From: Dokdonella sp.
GTDB lineage: Bacteria > Pseudomonadota > Gammaproteobacteria > Xanthomonadales > Rhodanobacteraceae
Direction of reading: 5' to 3'
Length of the DNA stretch: 64,000 nucleotides
NCBI GenBank assembly: GCA_016712865.1
Contig: JADJQH010000008.1
Location: 1,282,637-1,346,636, forward strand
A program made the position numbers and the translations under genes. Of this stretch, positions 50,613-61,905 are shown one piece after another; within the stretch, counting starts at the first letter, position 1, and every line of letters starts with the position of its first letter. The notes beneath the pieces are model-generated. The model worked only from the letters and a program-made list of their open reading frames with translations, did no database searches and was not told the origin of the DNA.

Positions 50613-52934
<2,322 letters not shown>

Positions 52935-53025
52935 AGACCAGAATCCTGGCTCAGGGCAACGGCATCACTCACCCCGCCTTGGCGGGAAGCCTCTTGAGGA
53001 ATTGTCAGGCTGTACCGCGCCGAAT

Positions 53026-53143
53026 CTAGGGAAACTCTGAACAAGTACGGAGCTCATTCGTCGCGAGCAAGCTCGCTCCCACAAAATCAAGCAATGGTGG
53101 GAGCGAGCTTGCTCGCGACAATACTGGTTCAGACCTTCCCTAG
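53026..53143. repeat. near-palindromic MITE-like element, copy 3 (inverted)
   Basis: Inverse orientation to copies 1 and 2. CTAGGGAAACTCTGAACAAG at the left and GGTTCAGACCTTCCCTAG at the right form the outer ends; CGCGAGCAAGCTCGCTCCCA and its inverse flank TTGATTGC-type centre sequence. It separates ftsK (core) from the cassette-like region. Confidence 0.78.
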
Positions 53144-53581: not shown

Positions 53582-53661
53582 GCCTGACGCCGTGTTAAGC
53601 GGCCTGCGGCCGGCATCGCTCGGTTCATAGAAAGCTTCTCCCCGCAGGTCGGCTTGAACGA
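53582..53661 (-). other. attC-like site interrupted by an IS110 remnant
   Basis: GCCTGAC (53582-53588) begins the site. GTTAAGCGGCCTGC (53594-53607) pairs with GCAGGTCGGCTTGAAC (53644-53659) with one unpaired base, the imperfect stem typical of attC. The expected GTTAGGC end is missing because IS110-type sequence starts near 53663, immediately after GGTCGGCTTGAACGAG. Confidence 0.65.
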
Positions 53662-53662
53662 G

Positions 53663-53867
53663 TAAAAAGAGACTTCCCGAATCGTACCCGCAGTTGGGCG
53701 CTGGCGCTCGCTGAGCGCATCGGGCACAACAAGGCTGCCGTGGCGCTGGCCAACAAGCCTGTCCTGAGCCTGACGAAGGGACCGTGCGACGACTCTGGGC
53801 TGCCGAACACCTCGGCGCCAGCTTCGATCCCGATCATGTGAGTCCGCGTCCCGAACCTGCCACCTGA
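53663..53867 (+). pseudogene. IS110-family remnant (left end plus transposase C-terminus)
   Basis: TAAAAAGAGACTTCCCG at the left resembles the left ends of the two longer IS110 copies. About 30 bp later a frame reads WALALAERIGHNKAAVALANK, the C-terminal region of IS110 transposases. The frame is then broken by an inserted CCTGTCCTGAGCCTGACG repeat and resumes in another frame as RRLWAAEHLGASFDPDHV, ending with TGA at 53865-53867. Most of the element is deleted. Confidence 0.65.
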
Positions 53868-54164
53868 TTCCCACGATCACCCGACACCGAATCACCAACG
53901 AATGCACAATCCTTCTGCCGTTGCCTGCTTCAACTCATCCAGGTGTGTCGGTCCCCGAACCTGAAAAGCCGATAACAATTCTGGTCAGCATGACCGATTG
54001 AACGTATGGCCCAGGTTCGCGGATTGGATGATGGCCAGGGCCAAGCCCACCACAAGGCCGAGTATGACCGAAGGAAATCCCCGTGGGACACGAATGCAAC
54101 CGCACCGCTTGCATGAATCGAGGCAAGAGCGTCAGCAGGGGAAGGAAGTAAAAGCACGCGGCTA
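53868..54164. other. degraded cassette sequence, no intact gene
   Basis: No convincing intact frame. Minus-strand sequence near 54000-54090 can be read as a short membrane-like segment (PSVILGLVVGLALAI), but the frame is broken on both sides. It probably represents a decayed cassette left of the attC candidate at 54165-54226. Confidence 0.4.
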
Positions 54165-54226
54165 CCGCCGCGCCGAGCTACCGCGTCCGGGGGTTGACGG
54201 GGGAGTCCATACACGAATTGTTAGAC
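54165..54226 (-). other. partial attC-like site
   Basis: On the minus strand the site starts GTCTAACAATTCGTGTA (from 54226), a good match to the usual first arm of attC sites, and the TAA is the stop codon of one frame of the broken membrane gene. The distal arm toward 54165 is poorly matched, so the site may be decayed. Confidence 0.5.
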
Positions 54227-54940
54227 CGCTGAAATGCCTAGTAGCCAACGGCCCAAACGCAACCACGGCCCGCTCTCCATGACAAGTGGTTCTATGGCGG
54301 TAAATGAGAAAGATGGCCCCGCCAGCCCAGATATAGACGGGATGTACGCGCTTGAATGTGATCCAGTCGCGGGCAATTGGAATGAGCAAGACAGAGTCTG
54401 CGATGTACGAAAATGTGACAAATGGATTGGGAATAAACGGCATGAAGTGGCGAAATCTGAACCATGCCGGGCCAAGGATGGAGATTGTGGCGACGACCAA
54501 GAGCCGCTTGTGTGTTTCGGGGTGCGGCGATAGAAGATTGCGGATCCAACTAAAGAGCCGAACAAGATCATTTCAATAACAGTGTTAACGAAGCTGCCAA
54601 TTAGCGAACTCTCGCCGCCTACCGCCAGGTCTCTGCGAGTGGCAAACGCCCCAATAAGAACTCCTGAAATGATGATTGCGACGCACAAAAAACACCGAAC
54701 CAGCCGATCTTGCGATGGGTCATGACGTTTTTTGATTGAATGAGCGACGTCTGTGCAATCAAGAAGAGCAACCAGCCAAATAGCAGCGCACCATGGATTT
54801 TGATGATGGGCGGAGCGGAAAATGTACCGCGAGCTAACGGAATGAAAAGTGTCGTTGAGAATCCAGCAATGGCAATGGCTAGGAATGCCACTGTTAAATA
54901 TAGGAAGAATCGGCTGCGCGTTGCGCTTCTGTAGACACGG
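54221..54940 (-). pseudogene. frameshifted multi-pass membrane protein (cassette gene)
   Basis: Pieced together across three frames, the protein has about seven membrane segments: FFLYLTVAFLAIAIAG, then IHGALLFGWLLFLIAQ, then FLCVAIIISGVLIGAF, NTVIEMILFGSLVGSAIF, LLVVATISILGPAWF and YIWAGGAIFLI, ending GRWLLGISAV with a TAA inside the attC end. Breaks are near 54687-54692 (A6 run, one base short), 54519-54522 (G4 run, one base short) and around 54300. I do not recognise a named family. The breaks may be real decay or sequencing errors. Confidence 0.65.
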
Positions 54941-54963
54941 CTCCCCCAAAGTTTGGTTCAGCG

Positions 54964-55035
54964 GTCTAAGGCCCGAGGTAACCGGCGCAAAGACCGCGTA
55001 GCGGGATTTGCGGCCGGTTGACCTAGTTGTTAGCC
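54964..55035 (-). other. attC site of the toxin-antitoxin cassette
   Basis: 72 bp. The outer end GTTAGCC (55029-55035) contains the toxin stop codon; the other end is GTCTAAG (54964-54970). AGGTAACCGGCGCAAA pairs with TTTGCGGCCGGTTGACCT leaving extrahelical bases, and CCGC-GTA-GCGG forms the apical loop. This is the classical attC fold. Confidence 0.8.
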
Positions 55036-55350
55036 CTTTGCTCGCCTTTCACGTGACGCGAGGCGCCCTCGACGCAGTAACCGCTCCGACCGCATGACGT
55101 AGAGAACAAAGACTTTGTGTCCGTCGTAGCGATAAAGCACGCGACAAGGCGGCTCGACGATCTGGCGATACCGCGACCGCCCGAGCTCCTGCGGCCGGCT
55201 ACCACTCTCCGGATGATCGGCCAGCTGCTCGACGTGACCAAAGATGCGCTTGATGAGCGCGGATGCAGCGATAGGGTTTTCGAGTGCGATGTAGTCTGCG
55301 ATGGCATCCAGGTCCCCCAGCGCTGGCTCCGACCAAACTATTTCAGCCAT
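55030..55350 (-). CDS. RelE/ParE-family toxin
   Basis: 106 residues. IVWSEPALGDLDAIADYIAL at the N-terminus and the CRVLYRYDGHKVFVLYVMRSER core match the ParE branch of the RelE/ParE superfamily (ParE toxins inhibit gyrase; RelE cuts mRNA). The ATG lies within the 3' end of the antitoxin gene (13-bp overlap). The TAA stop is in the attC end, showing this is a gene cassette. Toxin-antitoxin cassettes are common stabilisers of large integron arrays. Confidence 0.88.
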   Translation of the reverse strand: MAEIVWSEPALGDLDAIADYIALENPIAASALIKRIFGHVEQLADHPESGSRPQELGRSRYRQIVEPPCRVLYRYDGHKVFVLYVMRSERLLRRGRLASRERRAKG

Positions 55351-55595
55351 CGGGCAAGGCGCTTCTTGGCTTGAGCATGAGAAGCAACGCGGCCCTCGGC
55401 AATAGCCCGCTCCCCACGGGCGATACCCTCAAGGATTGCCATGCGCTGTTCCATGAGCTCGTAGGTCTCGACGTCCAGCAGGTACGCGCTGGGCAAACCA
55501 TGCTGAGTGATGAGGATGGGCTCTTTATCCCGCTCGATGTCCGACAGGAGTTCAGTGGCTTGACGCTTGAGAGTGGTAACGAGTTCGGTGCGCAT
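55338..55595 (-). CDS. Phd/YefM-family antitoxin
   Basis: 85 residues. TTLKRQATELLSDIERDKEP and ILITQHGLPSAYLLDVETYE are the Phd/YefM N-terminal DNA-binding fold; the C-terminal helix (MAILEGIARGERAIAEGR) should wrap the toxin. It precedes the toxin and overlaps it, the standard order. It likely autorepresses the pair. ATG start at 55595. Confidence 0.9.
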   Translation of the reverse strand: MRTELVTTLKRQATELLSDIERDKEPILITQHGLPSAYLLDVETYELMEQRMAILEGIARGERAIAEGRVASHAQAKKRLARWLK

Positions 55596-55766
55596 GAAGT
55601 GACACTACAGTATCACTCCCGGTTTCGCAAGCGCTTTCCACAAAGGGCAAACGAATGAAAGGGACTTCCCCGTCCCGGATGTGCCGCGCAATGGCGGTGT
55701 TCGGCAACGAAGTGCCACGATGGGAAGTGCAATCTCTCATCACCACACCAAGAAGGGGAAGTCCAC

Positions 55767-56836
55767 ATGAACATCGCAACGCTTGGCATTGATCTGGCAA
55801 AGAACGTCTTCGCGTTGCACGGTGTCGACATCGCCGGCAAGGCGGCGCTGGTCCGGCCCAGAGTGTCGCGAGGCGAGTTCTTGGAAGTAATCGCGTCGTT
55901 GCCACCTTGCCTGATCGGCACGGAAGCGTGCTCAGGCGCACACCATTGGGCGCGGCGCTGTATTGCATACGGCTTGCAGCCGCGCATCATGGCAGCCCAA
56001 TTCGTCACCCCGTTTCGCAAGGCCAACAAGACCAAGAATGACCGTGCCGATGCCGAGGCCATTGCCACGGCTGCACGGCAAGGCAACATGCGCTTTGTCC
56101 CGATCAAGTCGGTCGATCAACAGCTGCGTTTGTGCTGGCATCGGGCACGCGAGGGCTACAAGGTGGAGCATCGAGCGCTGGGCAACCGGATTCGGGGATT
56201 GTTGGCCGAGTTCGGCAACGTGGTGCCCAATACCGATGCCGCCTTGCGCGCGGCGCTGGCGGATCTCGATCACGCGAAGCTGCCGGCATCCCTGAATGCA
56301 TTGCTCGCGGACATGACCGCGCATTGGCATGCCATCGGTAAACGCAGGGATGCCTGTGAAGCACAAATCAGGCCCACGCACTGGCCGATGAACGTTGCCA
56401 GCGCCTGCGCTCGATCATTGGCGTGGGTGCGCTCAGTGCCGATGCGCTGGTGGCCAGCGTCGGCTCGGCGCAGGAGTTCAAGAACGGTCGGCAAATGGCC
56501 GCCTGGCTGGGACTGGTGCCGAGCCAGCACTCCACCGGCGGCGTCACCCGACTGGGCCCGATCAGCTGCCGTGGCGATGCTTATGTGCGCACCTTGCTGA
56601 TCCAGGGTGCCCGCTCCAGCCTGCAGCGCGCCAAAGCCGTCAGCGTAGAGAAGTCCACGCCCGAGCAAATGTGGATTCGTTCGCTGGCCTGTCGGCTGCC
56701 GTTTGGCAAGGTCCTCGTGGCGATTGCCAACAAACATGCCCGACAACTCTGGGCCTTGCTCGCGCACGATGTCGACTACGATCCCACCGCGTTCACGCGC
56801 CACCCCATGCAGCGCAGGAGCAACCCAGCCACCTGA
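55767..56836 (+). pseudogene. IS110-family transposase, frameshifted (copy A)
   Basis: The N-terminal DEDD (RuvC-like) domain runs MNIATLGIDLAKNVFALHG to about codon 200 with conserved KNDRADAEAIA. Near 56365 the frame shifts by one base (AGGCCC where AGGGCCC would restore it) and continues in another frame with DERCQRLRSIIGVGALSADA, the catalytic-Ser region PSQHSTGG and the RNPAT C-terminus (stop 56834-56836). The same shift is found in copy B. Unless frameshifting rescues it, the enzyme is inactive. Confidence 0.8.
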
Positions 56837-57178
56837 ACACGTCTCGATTCACCGTCAGCGCGATGCGGTAGCAACGGGTCGGACCCACCCGGAGCGAACC
56901 TGACTAACAATCTGGCCGTCCTTCCGTGTTGCAGCTGATCCCTGCAACATCGGCGACACCGCTGAATGAGCGAGGTCTCCGGGCGCGGTTTTACCCTGGT
57001 CCGCATCAACACATCCGATGCAACAAGACCGTCCAAGGAAATGCAGTCTGACTTCAGTTGCACACCGCAAGGCACTGACGCGCACCACGCACCACAGGGA
57101 CAACATCACAACCCGCATTGGCCCAAAGGCTCAGGGCAAAAGCATCATGCGTCCGCTATTGACGGGAAGTCTCCCAAG
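56837..57178 (+). ncRNA. candidate bridge/seek RNA region of IS110 copy A
   Basis: 342 bp between the transposase stop and the IS right end, with no coding potential and several short stems. IS1111-type elements are known to encode a guide RNA in this 3' segment. CTAACAAT (56904-56911) is the exact complement of ATTGTTAG in the right flank GAATTGTTAGGC, and GGGTCGG just upstream (56877-56883) resembles GGTCGGCT at the left junction of two other footprints. RNA boundaries are unknown. Confidence 0.45.
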
Positions 57179-57223
57179 GAATTGTTAGGCCTTTCCCGCC
57201 TATCTATGTGAGACATACGCAAC

Positions 57224-57649
57224 TTAGCTGGCAGGTGATGCAGGAGGCAAGGCGGTTTCCCTGGCGGCCGACTTGTCCTCGACGAGTAGGATGCGGACGG
57301 TCGTGATGCCAACATTCTTTACGTAGTGCTTGCCGCGAACTCCGGCCCATTCAGCTGCGCCAGTCTTTTCATCTGCGAGAAACGAGTTCCCATCTTCCAA
57401 GTGAACTTCGAGCTTGCCGCCGCTCAAGACATAAGAGACCTTTGGTGGGTGCGTGTGCCATTGATCCTGCTGTCCCGGGAGAAGCGTGTATTCCAGAACC
57501 CTCACGTGCTCATTTTCCAAGAGCAAGGTGAAGTTTGCGGGAGATGATTTGAGCGCATCGATTGGCGCGAGCTCATGATCCGCTGCTAGACACGAGCCTG
57601 TCAGGAGCATGGCGGCGCAAAAGAGAAGCTTTTGTACCTTGCACTTCAT
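57224..57649 (-). CDS. exported cupin-domain protein (cassette gene)
   Basis: 141 residues from the ATG at 57649, with GGAGAG upstream. A signal peptide (FCAAMLLTGSCLAAD) predicts export. The cupin core has HTHPPKVSYVLSGGKLEVH, giving the metal-type histidines, but the second motif is less complete. The function is unknown. The gene is bounded by an attC end at 57184-57190 and a full attC at 57667-57754, so it is one integron cassette. Confidence 0.78.
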   Translation of the reverse strand: MKCKVQKLLFCAAMLLTGSCLAADHELAPIDALKSSPANFTLLLENEHVRVLEYTLLPGQQDQWHTHPPKVSYVLSGGKLEVHLEDGNSFLADEKTGAAEWAGVRGKHYVKNVGITTVRILLVEDKSAARETALPPASPAS

Positions 57650-57666
57650 AGGACTCTCCAGGAAAG

Positions 57667-57754
57667 GCCTAACGGTTGAGTTGAGCGGCGCGCACACCGC
57701 GGTCTGAGCTTGGCACTTTATCCCTCACGCGTCCGCTCCAACGAGGTGTTAGGC
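57667..57754 (-). other. attC site
   Basis: 88 bp. The ends are GCCTAAC (57667-57673) and GTTAGGC (57748-57754), a perfect inverse pair. Inside, GTTGAGCGGCGCG pairs with CGCGTCCGCTCCAAC with an extrahelical base. The TAA inside the right end (minus strand) is the stop codon of the next gene. Best-preserved attC in the window. Confidence 0.88.
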
Positions 57755-58126
57755 GCGACCAAGGGCTGCCGTCGCGTTCGCGATGACGTCGGTTTCACTA
57801 AGTTGGCAGCGACGGAGCAATTGCTTCAGGGCCTCCACGTCGCCTCGCGCAACCGCAGCATCGAATTCTGACACCAAGCCAAGCTGGAACAGCCTCTCGT
57901 TCACGGTCATTCCCTGTAGAGCCGCGAGTTGCGCTTGCTCTTTCGCGTCAAGTTCCGCCCACCACAAAACGTCCCGATAGTCCTCGTTCGCGCGAGCTAA
58001 GAAGTGCCTGACCCGGTCTAGGTCGTCTTTGGCTAGAGCCGCGATTGCGGTTCGCACACGCTCCGGCTCCGGGCCGGTGTACGACAGCAACGCTTCCGCG
58101 AGAGATGACGATAGTTGGCTTGCCAC
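57749..58126 (-). CDS. small cytosolic protein of unknown function (cassette gene)
   Basis: About 125 residues if translation starts at the GTG at 58126 (ASQLSSSLAEALLS). A frame reaches the ATG at 58165, but that start lies beyond the GCCTAAC cassette boundary (58132-58138) and inside the IS1182 end, so it would be a product of IS insertion. The protein is helical and acidic, with VRTAIAALAKDDLDRVRHFL and a repeat-like VSEFDAAVARGDVEALKQLL, possibly ankyrin-like. The stop TAA sits in the attC end. No family recognised. Confidence 0.65.
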   Translation of the reverse strand: MASQLSSSLAEALLSYTGPEPERVRTAIAALAKDDLDRVRHFLARANEDYRDVLWWAELDAKEQAQLAALQGMTVNERLFQLGLVSEFDAAVARGDVEALKQLLRRCQLSETDVIANATAALGRA

Positions 58127-58141
58127 GAAGCGCCTAACGAA

Positions 58142-59887
58142 GCTGTAGAAAACTCCACCGATCATGCTCGACTAGCGTCATTCTGACAAGCGAGTGCTGG
58201 CATGGCGCGATACAAGGTGATCGACATGAGTCCACGGCTGTTGCCGGTGGATCTGGATGCGCAGTTGGTGCCGGGGTCGTTTGCCCATGCGCTGCATCAC
58301 CTGGTCGATCAGCTGGACCTTTCCGCGTTTGATGCGCGTTATCGCAACGACGCGACCGGTGCCACGGCGTATGCGCCATCGATACTGCTCAAGACCGTGT
58401 TGCTGGCCTATTCGCAAGGCCAGGTCAGCTCGCGTTGCATCGAACGCGCCTGCCGTGACAACGTGCTGTTCATTGCCCTGACCGGCGATGCCAAGCCGCA
58501 CTTCACCACGATTGCCGATTTTGTCAGCCGCTCACGCGATGCCATTGCCGCGGTGTTTGCGCAGGTGCTGGCCATTCTCGGCAAGGAAGGTCTGATTGGC
58601 CGCGAGATGTTTGCGATCGATGGGGTGAAGCTGCCCTCGAACGCCTCCAAGCACCGTTCGGGTACGCGGGCGGAGTTTCTGGCCCGGGGCAGGAAGCTGG
58701 AGCATGCCGCCAAACAAATGCTGGATCGTCATCACGCCAACGACGCCTCTGGTCGCGAGGTGTGCGAGGACACGGTCACTGCACGCATCGAACGCATGCG
58801 CGATGAAGCCAGCAAGATCCGCAGCTGGCTGGCTTCCAATCCGGAAGATCGCACAGGCAGCCGGGGCTGCGTGCGCAAATCCAATCGCATCGACAATGAA
58901 TCGGCCAAGATGGCCACCGACAAGGGTGTGATTCAAGGGTATTGCGGTGTGGCCGTGGTCGATGCTGCGCATCAAGTCATCGTCAACGCCTCGGCCCATG
59001 GCACCGGTTCGGAACAGGAACTGCTGGTGCCGATCATCGATGCCTGCGCCAGCCAACGCGCGACAAGCACCCTGATCACCGCCGATGCCGGCTATCACTC
59101 GGAAGCCAACCTCAGTGCCTTGAGCGAACGCGGCATCGACGCCTTGATTGCCGATGGCCAGATGCGCCGTCGTGATGAACGCTTTGCCGAGCAAGCCAAA
59201 CACACAGCCAAGCCCGATCCCTTGCATGACAAATCCGCCAAGGCCAAGACCGGTGTGTTTGCGGCGAATCGCTTCACGGTTGCCGAGGATCACTCGCATG
59301 CGATCTGCCCAGCCGGACAACGCCTGTATCGCAATGGCAAGGGCTGCAACGTCGGCACATACACTGCGATCAAGTTTCGCGCACCGCAGTCGGCCTGTGC
59401 CAACTGTGCCTTGCGCAGCCAGTGTCTGCGCAAGCCGGAAACGACCAAGGTCCGACAAGTCGCCGTGCTCACGCGCAAATCAACGCAAACGCATACCGAG
59501 CGCATGCGCCAACGCATCGACAGCGAACCAGGGCGAGAACGCTACGGCCAACGCTTTGCCACGGTCGAACCGGTGTTTGGCAACCTGCGCCACAACAAGG
59601 GGCTGAACCGCTTCACCCTGCGCGGACAAGACAAGGTCGATGGGCAATGGAAGCTGTTTGCCCTGGTTCACAACATCGAGAAGTGGGCGAATTACCGAAA
59701 GGCAGCGTAAGGGAAAACACGCCCGCGAAAATCACACCAGATCGTACCCGCAGGCAGCAAAGCGCCCCACAAAGCTGCGATCGCGGTCAGTGACCCAATC
59801 AAACGAAAAACCGTCGTTTGAAACATGCCGATGGGAAATCGCGCGGCACGGTGAAATCGCACCAGCAAAAAGGGGTTTTTCTACAAC
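58142..59887 (+). mobile_element. IS1182-family insertion sequence
   Basis: About 1.75 kb. The left end GCTGTAGAAAACTCC and the right end GGGGTTTTTCTACAAC are imperfect inverted repeats. A single transposase gene (58202-59710) is intact and the segment 59711-59887 is non-coding. The element lies inside the attC split described above, just after GCCTAACGAA. No target duplication could be confirmed. Confidence 0.8.
58202..59710 (+). CDS. IS1182-family transposase
   Basis: 502 residues. DUF772-type N-terminus (LDQLDLSAF-like region, SILLKTVLLAYSQGQVSSR), DDE catalytic core with FAIDGVKLPSNASKH, ITADAGYHSEAN and a late Glu region, a CANCALRSQCLR zinc-like cluster and the C-terminal VEPVFGNLRHNKGLNRF typical of IS1182/IS5-type enzymes. 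The frame is intact, so the element may be active. ATG start at 58202. Confidence 0.9.
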   Translation: MARYKVIDMSPRLLPVDLDAQLVPGSFAHALHHLVDQLDLSAFDARYRNDATGATAYAPSILLKTVLLAYSQGQVSSRCIERACRDNVLFIALTGDAKPHFTTIADFVSRSRDAIAAVFAQVLAILGKEGLIGREMFAIDGVKLPSNASKHRSGTRAEFLARGRKLEHAAKQMLDRHHANDASGREVCEDTVTARIERMRDEASKIRSWLASNPEDRTGSRGCVRKSNRIDNESAKMATDKGVIQGYCGVAVVDAAHQVIVNASAHGTGSEQELLVPIIDACASQRATSTLITADAGYHSEANLSALSERGIDALIADGQMRRRDERFAEQAKHTAKPDPLHDKSAKAKTGVFAANRFTVAEDHSHAICPAGQRLYRNGKGCNVGTYTAIKFRAPQSACANCALRSQCLRKPETTKVRQVAVLTRKSTQTHTERMRQRIDSEPGRERYGQRFATVEPVFGNLRHNKGLNRFTLRGQDKVDGQWKLFALVHNIEKWANYRKAA

Positions 59888-60019
59888 CTCAACGCCGGAA
59901 TTCAGCCGCCGCCAGCCCGCGTAGCGGATGGCGGTCGGCTAGAATAAAAAAGAGACCTCCTCGTCATTCGGCCTCGAGGGCCATGATGGTCGTAACCGTC
60001 AGCAGAGGAGGAAGTCTCC

Positions 60020-61085
60020 ATGAGCACTATAACCATCGGCGTTGACCTGGCAAAGCGCGTGTTCACCACCTGCCGTGTTGACCATGGCGGACGGGTGCTG
60101 GAGCGCAAAGAACACACGCGCGAATCCTTTGCAGTTTGGCTGGCGCAAGTTCCTCGCGGCACGCAGGTGGCCATGGAAGCGTGTGGCGGTGCACACCATT
60201 GGGCGCGGCGCTGTATTCGCCTACGGCTTGCAGCCGCGCCTCATAGCAGCCCAATTCGTCACCCCGTTTCGTAAGGCCAACAAGACCAAGAATGACCGTG
60301 CCGATGCCGAGGCCATCGCCACGGCTGCACGGCAAGGCAACATGCGCTTGTCCCGATCAAGTCGGTCGATCAACAGCTGCGTTTGTGCTGGCATCGGGCA
60401 CGCGAGGGCTACAAGGTGGAGCATCGAGCGCTGGGCAACCGGATTCAGGGATTGTTGGCCGAGTTCGGCAACGTGGTGCCCAATACCGATGCCGCCTTGC
60501 GCGCGGCGCTGGCGGATCTCGATCACGCGAAGCTGCCGGCATCCCTGAATGCATTGCTCGCGGACATGACCGCGCATTGGCATGCCATCGGTAAACGCAG
60601 GGATGCCTGTGAAGCACAAATCAGGCCCACGCACTGGCCGATGAACGTTGCCAGCGCCTGCGCTCGATCATTGGCGTGGGTGCGCTCAGTGCCGATGCGC
60701 TGGTGGCTAGCGTCGGCTCGGCGCAGGAGTTCAAGAACGGTCGGCAAATGGCCGCCTGGCTGGGACTGGTGCCAAGCCAGCACTCCACCGGCGGCGTCGC
60801 CCGACTGGGCCTCGATCAGCTGCCGTGGCGATGCTTATGTGCGCACCTTGCTGATCCAGGGTGCCCGCTCCAGCCTGCAACGCGCCGGTCAGCGTAGAGA
60901 AGCCCACGCCCGAGCAAGTGGGGAGTCGTTCGCGGGCCTGTCGGCTGCCGTTTGGCAAGGTCCGCGTGGCGATTGCCAACAAGCATGCCCGACAACTCTG
61001 GGCCTTGCTCGCGCACGATGTCGACTACGATCCCACCGCGTTCACGCGCCACCCCATGCAGCGCAGGAGCAACCCAGCCACCTGA
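60020..61085 (+). pseudogene. IS110-family transposase, multiply frameshifted (copy B)
   Basis: MSTITIGVDLAKRVFTTCRV starts a normal IS110 N-terminus, different from that of copy A. Relative to copy A the gene has an extra base near 60214, a missing T near 60347, the shared one-base loss near 60617, an extra base near 60812 and a small change near 60885. None of the catalytic frame survives intact. Stop at 61083-61085. Confidence 0.8.
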
Positions 61086-61428
61086 ACACGTCTCGATTCA
61101 CCGTCAGCGCGATGCGGTAGCAACGGGTCGGACCCACCCGGAGCGAACCTGACTAACAATCTGGCCGTCCTTCCGTGTTGCAGCTGATCCCTGCAACATC
61201 GGCGACACCGCTGAATGAGCGGGGTCTCCGGGCGCGGTTTTTACCCTGGTCCGCATCAACACATCCGATGCAACAAGACCGTCCAAGGAAATGCAGTCTG
61301 ACTTCAGTTGCACACCGCAAGGCACTGACGCTTACCACGCACCACAGGGACAACATCACAACCCGCATTGGCCCAAAGGCTCAGGGCAAAAGCATCATGC
61401 GTCCGCTATTGACGGGAAGTCTCCCAAG
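61086..61428 (+). ncRNA. candidate bridge/seek RNA region of IS110 copy B
   Basis: 343 bp, nearly identical to 56837-57178 and much better preserved than the broken transposase frame. CTAACAAT recurs at 61153-61160. Same reasoning as for copy A; expression and boundaries are unknown. Confidence 0.45.
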
Positions 61429-61434
61429 GAATTG

Positions 61435-61905
61435 TTAGGCCGCGGGCTTTGAGCTCTGAGCCAGAAGCGACGCGAAGCCTACCAACAATACCACTCTGGG
61501 TGGGCCGCGGAGGTGGCGGCGCATGATTGAAGACAGATAAGGGACGACCGAACAGAAGGATTCGAGTGCCGGATTGTTTTCTTTCCCGAAATTCTCCTTA
61601 GCACGACGCGTGCCTTCTCCGGGTAGTTGAGAAAGATTCCGCGATAGTGAGGACTCTGTCATAGTCTGGACTCAAGTTTGGATGTCCTCTCCGTTAAGAA
61701 GTACTTGCGGAGATGTGGGTACTCGATCAAGTGTGCGCGAAAAGCGGAAGCCTACTCGTATGTTGCTGAGGTGGCTGCGATCTGCGAGGAATGTCATAGG
61801 TCTCGGGAAGTTGGAGTAGAGCAACGGGATGCCGACGATGGACAATAATGAGGCCACAAAGGCGAGATTAGGCTGACGCGGTCTCAGGCGCTCATCTACG
61901 ACGCT
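61435..61905 (-). pseudogene. cassette gene with in-frame stop, unknown function
   Basis: A single frame runs from about 61905 to the TAA in the attC end (61435-61437), interrupted by one TGA at 61672-61674. Upstream part: RPRQPNLAFVASLLSIVGIPLLYSNF (one membrane segment), then LADRSHLSNIRVGFRFSRT. Downstream part (75 residues from the ATG at 61662): RRHLRGPPRVVLLVGFASLL near its end. An AGGAG at about 61905-61909 precedes an ATG in another frame, so a frameshift may also exist near the start. No family recognised. Confidence 0.45.

Follow-up and report, generated by a model that had tools for sequence, protein, structure and literature searches.

IS1111-type elements, probably RNA guided, and an IS1182-family element at integron attC sites of a Dokdonella genome and its relatives

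Why do several insertion sequences (ISs) in one cassette array lie at the same point of integron attC sites? The question is raised by a 64-kb stretch of a Dokdonella sp. genome (here the window; C8:1282637-1346636, reaching the contig end, in a genome of 3.75 Mb in 8 contigs), in which two full-length IS1111-type elements, here called copy A and copy B, and shorter footprints of such elements adjoin attC sequence. attC-targeting IS1111 elements and seekRNA are already published. For the elements described here, we consider the targeting real and RNA guidance, as read from sequence, its most likely basis: a Xanthomonadales lineage of IS1111 elements (B-type) probably picks attC by an RNA guide, a second lineage (A-type) would mirror it, and copy A would be a recombinant of the two.

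Four IS1111 footprints and a doubly interrupted attC

The window contains four IS110/IS1111-type right ends (Table 1), each followed by GAATTGTYAGRC, a 12-mer found exactly four times in the 64 kb, always on the plus strand and always at an IS right end. A sequence-only reading of this DNA had counted three footprints in about 8 kb; repeated insertion is borne out, with right ends at 54214 and 52998 in addition. Both full copies do end directly before GAATTGTTAGGC, copy A at 57178 and copy B at 61428. Left ends that the same reading had put at 53663 and 59941 indeed follow an attC arm, with the first IS base now placed at 53660 (junction GGTCGGCTTGAAC/GAGTAAAAAGAGAC) and 59942 (GGTCGGCTA/GAATAAAAAAGAGACC). 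Since a right end at 54214 is followed by GAATTGTTAGAC, the left end at 53660 belongs to a 555-bp internally deleted element, whose inner part briefly matches the transposase 3' region (22/26). The fourth footprint is a remnant, 75% identical to the end of copy A over 63 bp.

Copies A and B are 97% identical across 1276 aligned bases, unrelated in their first ~250 bp, and both frame-broken, with the same break within the shared part; they therefore record past activity only. No other match at E ≤ 1e-40 occurs in the Dokdonella sp. assembly. Frame pieces of copy A match NF033542 (161 bits, cut-off 140, and 107 bits) as well as PF01548 and PF02371, identifying a DEDD (IS110-type) transposase. 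The IS1111-type hallmark of a longer noncoding region downstream of the transposase gene is present in copy A, with 342 bp past the last frame piece (56836 to 57178) versus 114 bp ahead of the start codon. Relatives also carry IS1111-type subterminal repeats of 11-13 bp with 7-bp and 3-bp extensions (GAGTAAA plus AAGAGACTTCC at the left, GGAAGTCTCTT plus ACG at the right), which are degenerate in the window copies.

That one attC point is used throughout, as had been proposed, holds for all four right ends. It does not hold for the left end of copy A, which adjoins GGGCAAAC instead of an attC L arm because the first ~250 bp come from another IS1111 lineage. The attC of copy B can be rejoined, as the sequence-only reading had it, although this works only when an IS1182-family element, which that reading did not mention, is omitted too: joining 58132-58138, 59894-59941 and 61429-61440 yields a 67-bp attC-like site.

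Table 1. Positions of the IS elements, attC parts and predicted guides in the window
Feature	Position	Strand	Details
Right-end remnant, IS1111-type	52948..52998	+	then GAATTGTCAGGC (52999-53010); blastn 47/63 to copy A right end including flank
Internally deleted B-type IS1111 element, 555 bp	53660..54214	+	left flank GGTCGGCTTGAAC, right flank GAATTGTTAGAC
Copy A, hybrid IS1111 element, frame-broken	55653..57178	+	A-type left end and first ~56 residues, B-type rest and right end
Copy A predicted T-guide	56904..56912	+	CTAACAATC
Copy A predicted B-guide	56963..56971	+	TGAATGAGC
attC terminus after copy A	57179..57190	+	GAATTGTTAGGC
Uninterrupted attC-like site of the array	57667..57754	-	single-hairpin fold, -18.0 kcal/mol
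R' core GCCTAAC of attC holding two ISs	58132..58138	.	last three bases AAC = duplicated target
IS1182-family element, 1752 bp	58139..59890	+	transposase 58202-59710; terminal repeats GAAGCTGTAGAAAA/TTTTTCTACAACCTC; NF033551 312 bits, cut-off 270
Middle of doubly hit attC	59891..59941	.	duplicated AAC, R'-arm, loop, L'' arm to GGTCGGCTA
Copy B, B-type IS1111 element, several frame breaks	59942..61428	+	
Copy B predicted T-guide	61153..61161	+	CTAACAATC; CTAACAAT complement of ATTGTTAG in right flank
Copy B predicted B-guide	61212..61220	+	TGAATGAGC
R'' end of doubly hit attC	61429..61440	.	GAATTGTTAGGC

Relatives fall into two lineages with different attC flanks

Genomes of the family have loci in common with named Frateuria and Rhodanobacter records (e.g., L026 and L053), pointing to Rhodanobacteraceae. 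With residues 1-201 of copy A as the query, 53 matches were obtained in 29 of 233 family genomes (E ≤ 1e-40). A scan of named genomes gave 596 stretches with at least 533 relatives, and the top 80 were retained. These relatives fall into two lineages. B-type elements, the lineage that makes up most of both full window copies, have the left extension GAGTAAA, the repeats AAGAGACTTCC/GGAAGTCTCTT, a left flank CTTGAAY and a right flank GANNNGTTAG. Frateuria, a Rhodanobacter metagenome-assembled genome, Pseudoxanthomonas gei and Lysobacter sp. A03 are among their named hosts. Across the order, 20 of 398 genomes have the exact left end, and one of these belongs to another family. A-type elements come mainly from beta- and gammaproteobacterial records. 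Their left ends adjoin RYYYAAC: the left flank closes with AAC in 34 of 48, a total that counts copy A but neither L097, which has two flanking bases, nor six ends of the CAATGGG type. attC R'-arm sequence follows on the right in several, L083, L094, L106 and L125.

How specific is the B-type flank? A census pattern free of flanking sequence (TTGANNGGAAGTCTCTTACG) matched 63 places in 37 of 230 family genomes, and 47 of these 63 canonical right ends have GNNNNGTTAG at the exact spacing, which supports the proposed attC preference; a xanthomonad-type version of the IS1111-attC group is supported as well. A shorter end combined with GNNNNGTTAG matched 51 places in 31 of the 230 genomes, 47 of them common to both sets; the right-end pattern misses the right ends in the window itself (CCAAG or diverged) and, except for one, those of the family genome G125 (TTATG). 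In the fetched set, which was partly chosen by a flank-conditioned census and is not unbiased, NNNNNGTTAG stands at 54 of 69 distinct right ends, and most of the other 15 show a one-base shift or change. In L183-L234, many B-type right ends lack a nearby left end, which may reflect partly contig edges and partly decay sparing the right end and the noncoding region.

The check suggested earlier, a search for empty sites, found the uninterrupted junction GTCCGCCTTGAAYGANNNGTTAG in 73 of 230 family genomes, not in the Dokdonella sp. genome; the backwards control gave zero among the rows listed. Hence, the IS splits a junction such as CTTGAAC/GAATTGTTAG without duplication. As the cassettes lie on the minus strand, the GTTAGGC located five bases from the right ends is the R'' core. 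The short core GTTRRRY is not enriched in the window (60 versus 76.6 expected), so core counting was dropped in favor of the longer motif at its fixed spacing, which carries the evidence. By eye and fold z-scores, not by a program call, an attC arm lies on the left of 22 of 25 full-length elements outside G125, one of which (L038) has no attC on the right. An ungapped attC score was also tried and dropped, as 10 of 34 sites passed along with 535 of 3400 shuffles.

Guides in a predicted RNA match the targets

The B-type noncoding region reads CCTGA-CTAACNNNN, a hairpin, then CCGN-TGAAYGAAN-GAGG. CTAAC is complementary to the GTTAG of the target, and TGAAYGAA is identical to the left flank followed by the first bases on the right, an order that agrees with the one given for IS1111 seekRNAs in passages of PMC11187229. 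A consensus fold built from 24 segments, 23 of them distinct and none from G125, places the CTAAC and TGAAY guides opposite each other in one internal loop over a basal stem, with some two-sided pair changes and a fold energy of -41.8, versus -18.5 (standard deviation 3.8, lowest -27.0) for 60 column shuffles. A-type elements carry CTAACGAA at the homologous place, which puts their core guide in the other arm.

Guides were compared with their own and with permuted targets for 32 elements in 20 groups, with L046 and window copy B left out for mismatch to the search expression. Permutations reached the observed match of the B-guide in 2 of 5000 cases for the left five bases and 6 of 5000 for all nine, and that of the T-guide in 20 of 5000 for the variable four bases and 62 of 5000 for the best fit. 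The corresponding A-type tests (7 and 61 of 5000) carry little weight, as extraction was wrong in several of 14 rows (e.g., L074 and L100, and for the T-guide L095, L100, L111 and L118).

The sequence-only reading would have been contradicted by copies in unrelated DNA. This is partly the case: such copies exist, but their guides are changed. The guide of G125 is AAGAC, and in the nine of its 11 copies that were readable whole the left flank ends in C and no attC is seen by reading; one of the G125 copies adjoins the right end of another IS (L144). These nine retain GTTAG (seven) or GCTAG (two) 4 to 6 bases off the right end. The single copy of G167 (L039), with the guide CGACAGAAT, lies in non-attC DNA between the left flank CCGACA and the right flank GGCTGCTAG. 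Copies outside attC that carry changed guides favor RNA guiding.

Could the transposase instead recognize the folded attC hairpin, the guide-like motifs being incidental? attC does fold, palindrome targeting is known in other IS families, and joined sites outside G125 fold better than shuffles (fold z-scores of -5.4 to +1.1, versus -2.3 to +1.2 at the nine G125 sites; Mann-Whitney p 0.005). Yet no such fold is present at the sites of the G125 and G167 copies, which still have GTTAG or GCTAG close to the right end and agree with the changed guides. The junction is also asymmetric, always on one arm; we regard hairpin recognition as unlikely. A single old attC insertion multiplied within cassettes by the integron integrase, so that flanks were simply inherited, would account for the 97% identical 1.28-kb segment and common frame break of copies A and B, in a host where an integron integrase is present. 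It is equally improbable, given right-end spacers that differ among five G207 copies (GAATG, GAGAT, GACTT, GAATA and GAAAT), left attC arms that vary between copies, and changed-guide elements at other targets.

Several observations weigh against RNA guidance as we propose it. Without G125 and G167, the remaining 18 groups give a weak B-guide signal (349 of 5000 for the left five bases, 612 for all nine), which thus rests largely on these two changed guides; the T-guide values become 58 of 5000 (variable bases) and 169 of 5000 (best fit). Related hosts have similar attC, making the permutations not fully independent, and a guide base is mismatched to its own target in several elements (L032, L048). 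Two further G125 copies (L138) have the same AAGAC guide but attC-like left flanks, CTTGAAC and CTTGGAC, with GTTAG on the right; they may be older than the guide change. Pair changes in the fold were counted by sequence, not by event, and six C-G pairs (columns 42/128) seem to come from a single clade. Of 34 sites, only 15 passed as attC under a strict single-hairpin fold.

Positions, flanks, guide-target matches, the conserved fold and the hybrid makeup of copy A are read directly from sequence. On balance, we infer that B-type elements express a noncoding RNA of the seekRNA kind, encoded downstream of the transposase gene. One side of its conserved internal loop (CTAACNNNN) would pair with the attC-core GTTAG that will flank the right end, and the other side (TGAAYGAAN), equal to the L'' arm plus the first target bases, would pair with the opposite strand. 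The transposase-RNA complex would then transpose the IS in between CTTGAAY and GANNNGTTAG, without target duplication, near the R''/L'' end of attC, five bases from the core and with the right end facing it. In A-type elements the RNA would be laid out alike except that the opposite arm holds the core guide (CTAACGAA), and the IS would adjoin the core on the R' side. The window elements would have decayed after insertion.

Copy A is probably a hybrid of the two lineages

Residues 1-56 of copy A have a mean identity of 68.2% with A-type elements (45 loci) and 39.5% with B-type elements (73 loci); for residues 62-201, the values are 45.5% (45 A-type loci) and 65.6% (72 B-type loci). We infer from these identities a recombination event between an A-type and a B-type element, which would have removed the middle of one attC or the cassettes between two; a recombinant has one flank of each kind. 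Copy A might otherwise be a natural element that has not been described before and has a 5' end of its own. Just one such element has been seen whole, the second A-type left end in the genome (contig C2, L012) being a fragment, but the closest relatives change abruptly from residue 56 to residue 62, and both flanks are those typical of the lineage of the adjoining end, which makes a nonrecombinant origin very unlikely.

An IS1182-family group at the R' core

The IS1182-family element of the window sits between the R' core and the remainder of copy B's attC, with AAC on both sides. A second, internally deleted copy in the genome lies in another attC-like site (L013), again between two AAC. Relatives at E ≤ 1e-100 number 18 matches in 10 of 230 family genomes and 15 in 11 of 369 class genomes, both counts including the window's own element. 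All 25 distinct insertions with both ends readable (45 rows, most printed on both strands; both ends caught by one expression) show a 3-bp AAC/GTT duplication. The site continues as GTTA in 22 of the 25, and only 9 fit the strict GTTRRRY. On the opposite side, attC arms are evident by eye at most sites and uncertain in L261, L266 and L274. Seven loci were left out of the count (L252, L254, L257, L264, L265, L268 and L273; end missing, contig edge or off the expression), of which L265, L268 and L273 look like counted sites and L264 has no credible repeat. Orientation varies between groups. L246-L276 and the window element possibly form an attC-specific IS1182 group.

Three of the 25, in L255 and L258 (G146) and in L276, have a further copy in tandem on one side, one copy being inserted at the duplication left by another.

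Taken together, we lean slightly toward attC being a target on which at least three IS lineages have converged, each with its own point, with IS1111 lineages swapping modules and the attC at 58132-61440 hit by two of the three. Two lineages would be RNA-guided IS1111 elements whose core-reading CTAAC lies in opposite arms of the guide loop, so that they enter at opposite ends of the attC palindrome; the third would be a DDE-type IS1182 element duplicating AAC/GTT at the R' core. If IS1111 lineages swap modules, as copy A suggests, the target program is exchangeable by recombination. This convergence is weakened by the IS1182 sites, only 9 of 25 of which fit the strict core, and by the two G125 copies that keep attC.

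The cassette array and other cassette-like regions

The array begins at ~53 kb of the window, with genes mostly on the minus strand; products include a DoxX-like protein and a ParE/Phd-like pair, and a cupin match falls below the Pfam cut-off. A strict-fold search for intact attC in the array found one site only (Table 1). An integron integrase gene lies at the edge of contig C1 (TIGR02249, 482 bits), into which the array presumably continues from C8, and pieces of a broken integron integrase lie on C2. Near-identical sequence follows the broken integrase on C2 (L012:6440, minus) and the full one on C1 (L022:1140, plus), as if the integrase end had been duplicated.

Between a large open reading frame ending at 52934 and the first cassette is a long inverted repeat, GTCGCGAGCAAGCTCGCTCCCAC...GTGGGAGCGAGCTTGCTCGCGAC (53040-53115), and similar repeats also occur near the broken integrase in L012. 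L012 (G000 C2:864000-883000) is a second cassette-like region with the A-type left end CCACCCAAC/GAATGAAAGGG, where the A-type transposase start runs into a piece of the broken integrase; it additionally has a B-type left end and a right end preceding GAATTGTCAGCC. A third cassette-like region, L013 (G000 C8:458000-474000), contains a pair of diverged IS1111 right ends, one ahead of CGAATAGTTAGAAC and the other ahead of AAATTGTTAGGC.

Comparison with known systems

Changed guides with changed targets and a natural hybrid provide natural guide-target pairs for RNA-guided IS1111 elements, making the guide code testable by comparison. The findings as a whole also suggest that several site-specific ISs shape integron arrays by breaking attC, fusing or freezing cassettes. 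An attC-core IS1182 group, if true, would give ISs a second, unrelated means of targeting integrons. A literature search on IS1182 with attC and integron returned, in the parts of papers covered, no report of attC-core targeting, and the part of PMC9137128 concerned merely names IS1182. According to passages of PMC5678879, some IS1182 members target palindromes. IS1272 resembles the window element in combining an IS1182-family transposase with an inverted-repeat DNA target; IS1272 is described as replacing that target, whereas the window element keeps attC and duplicates AAC/GTT at the R' core.

No labelled copies of ISKpn4 or ISPst6 were met among the matches, those in three plasmid records being named 'IS110 family' or nothing; passages of PMC11322120 treat attC counts and ISKpn40. 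Titles and abstract openings, together with passages of PMC12444791, PMC11089894, PMC11616780, PMC3589745 and PMC4687120, yielded no IS1111 lineage at the other end of attC. With the IS1111-attC group (ISKpn4, ISPst6, ISPa25), the elements described here share the IS1111-type transposase, the downstream noncoding region, subterminal repeats, a fixed attC insertion point and the guide order stated for IS1111 seekRNAs. A provisional distinction from ISKpn4 and ISPst6 lies in the point of entry: B-type elements enter five bases from the R'' core with the right end towards it, unlike A-type elements, which adjoin RYYYAAC by the left end. The closest parallel to G125 and G167 is the natural redirection of ISEc11 and ISXne4 in passages of PMC11187229, where close relatives likewise have changed guides at changed targets; unlike in that pair, the change here took place within an attC lineage, and in G125 only one half of the target changed while the GTTAG/GCTAG side was kept.

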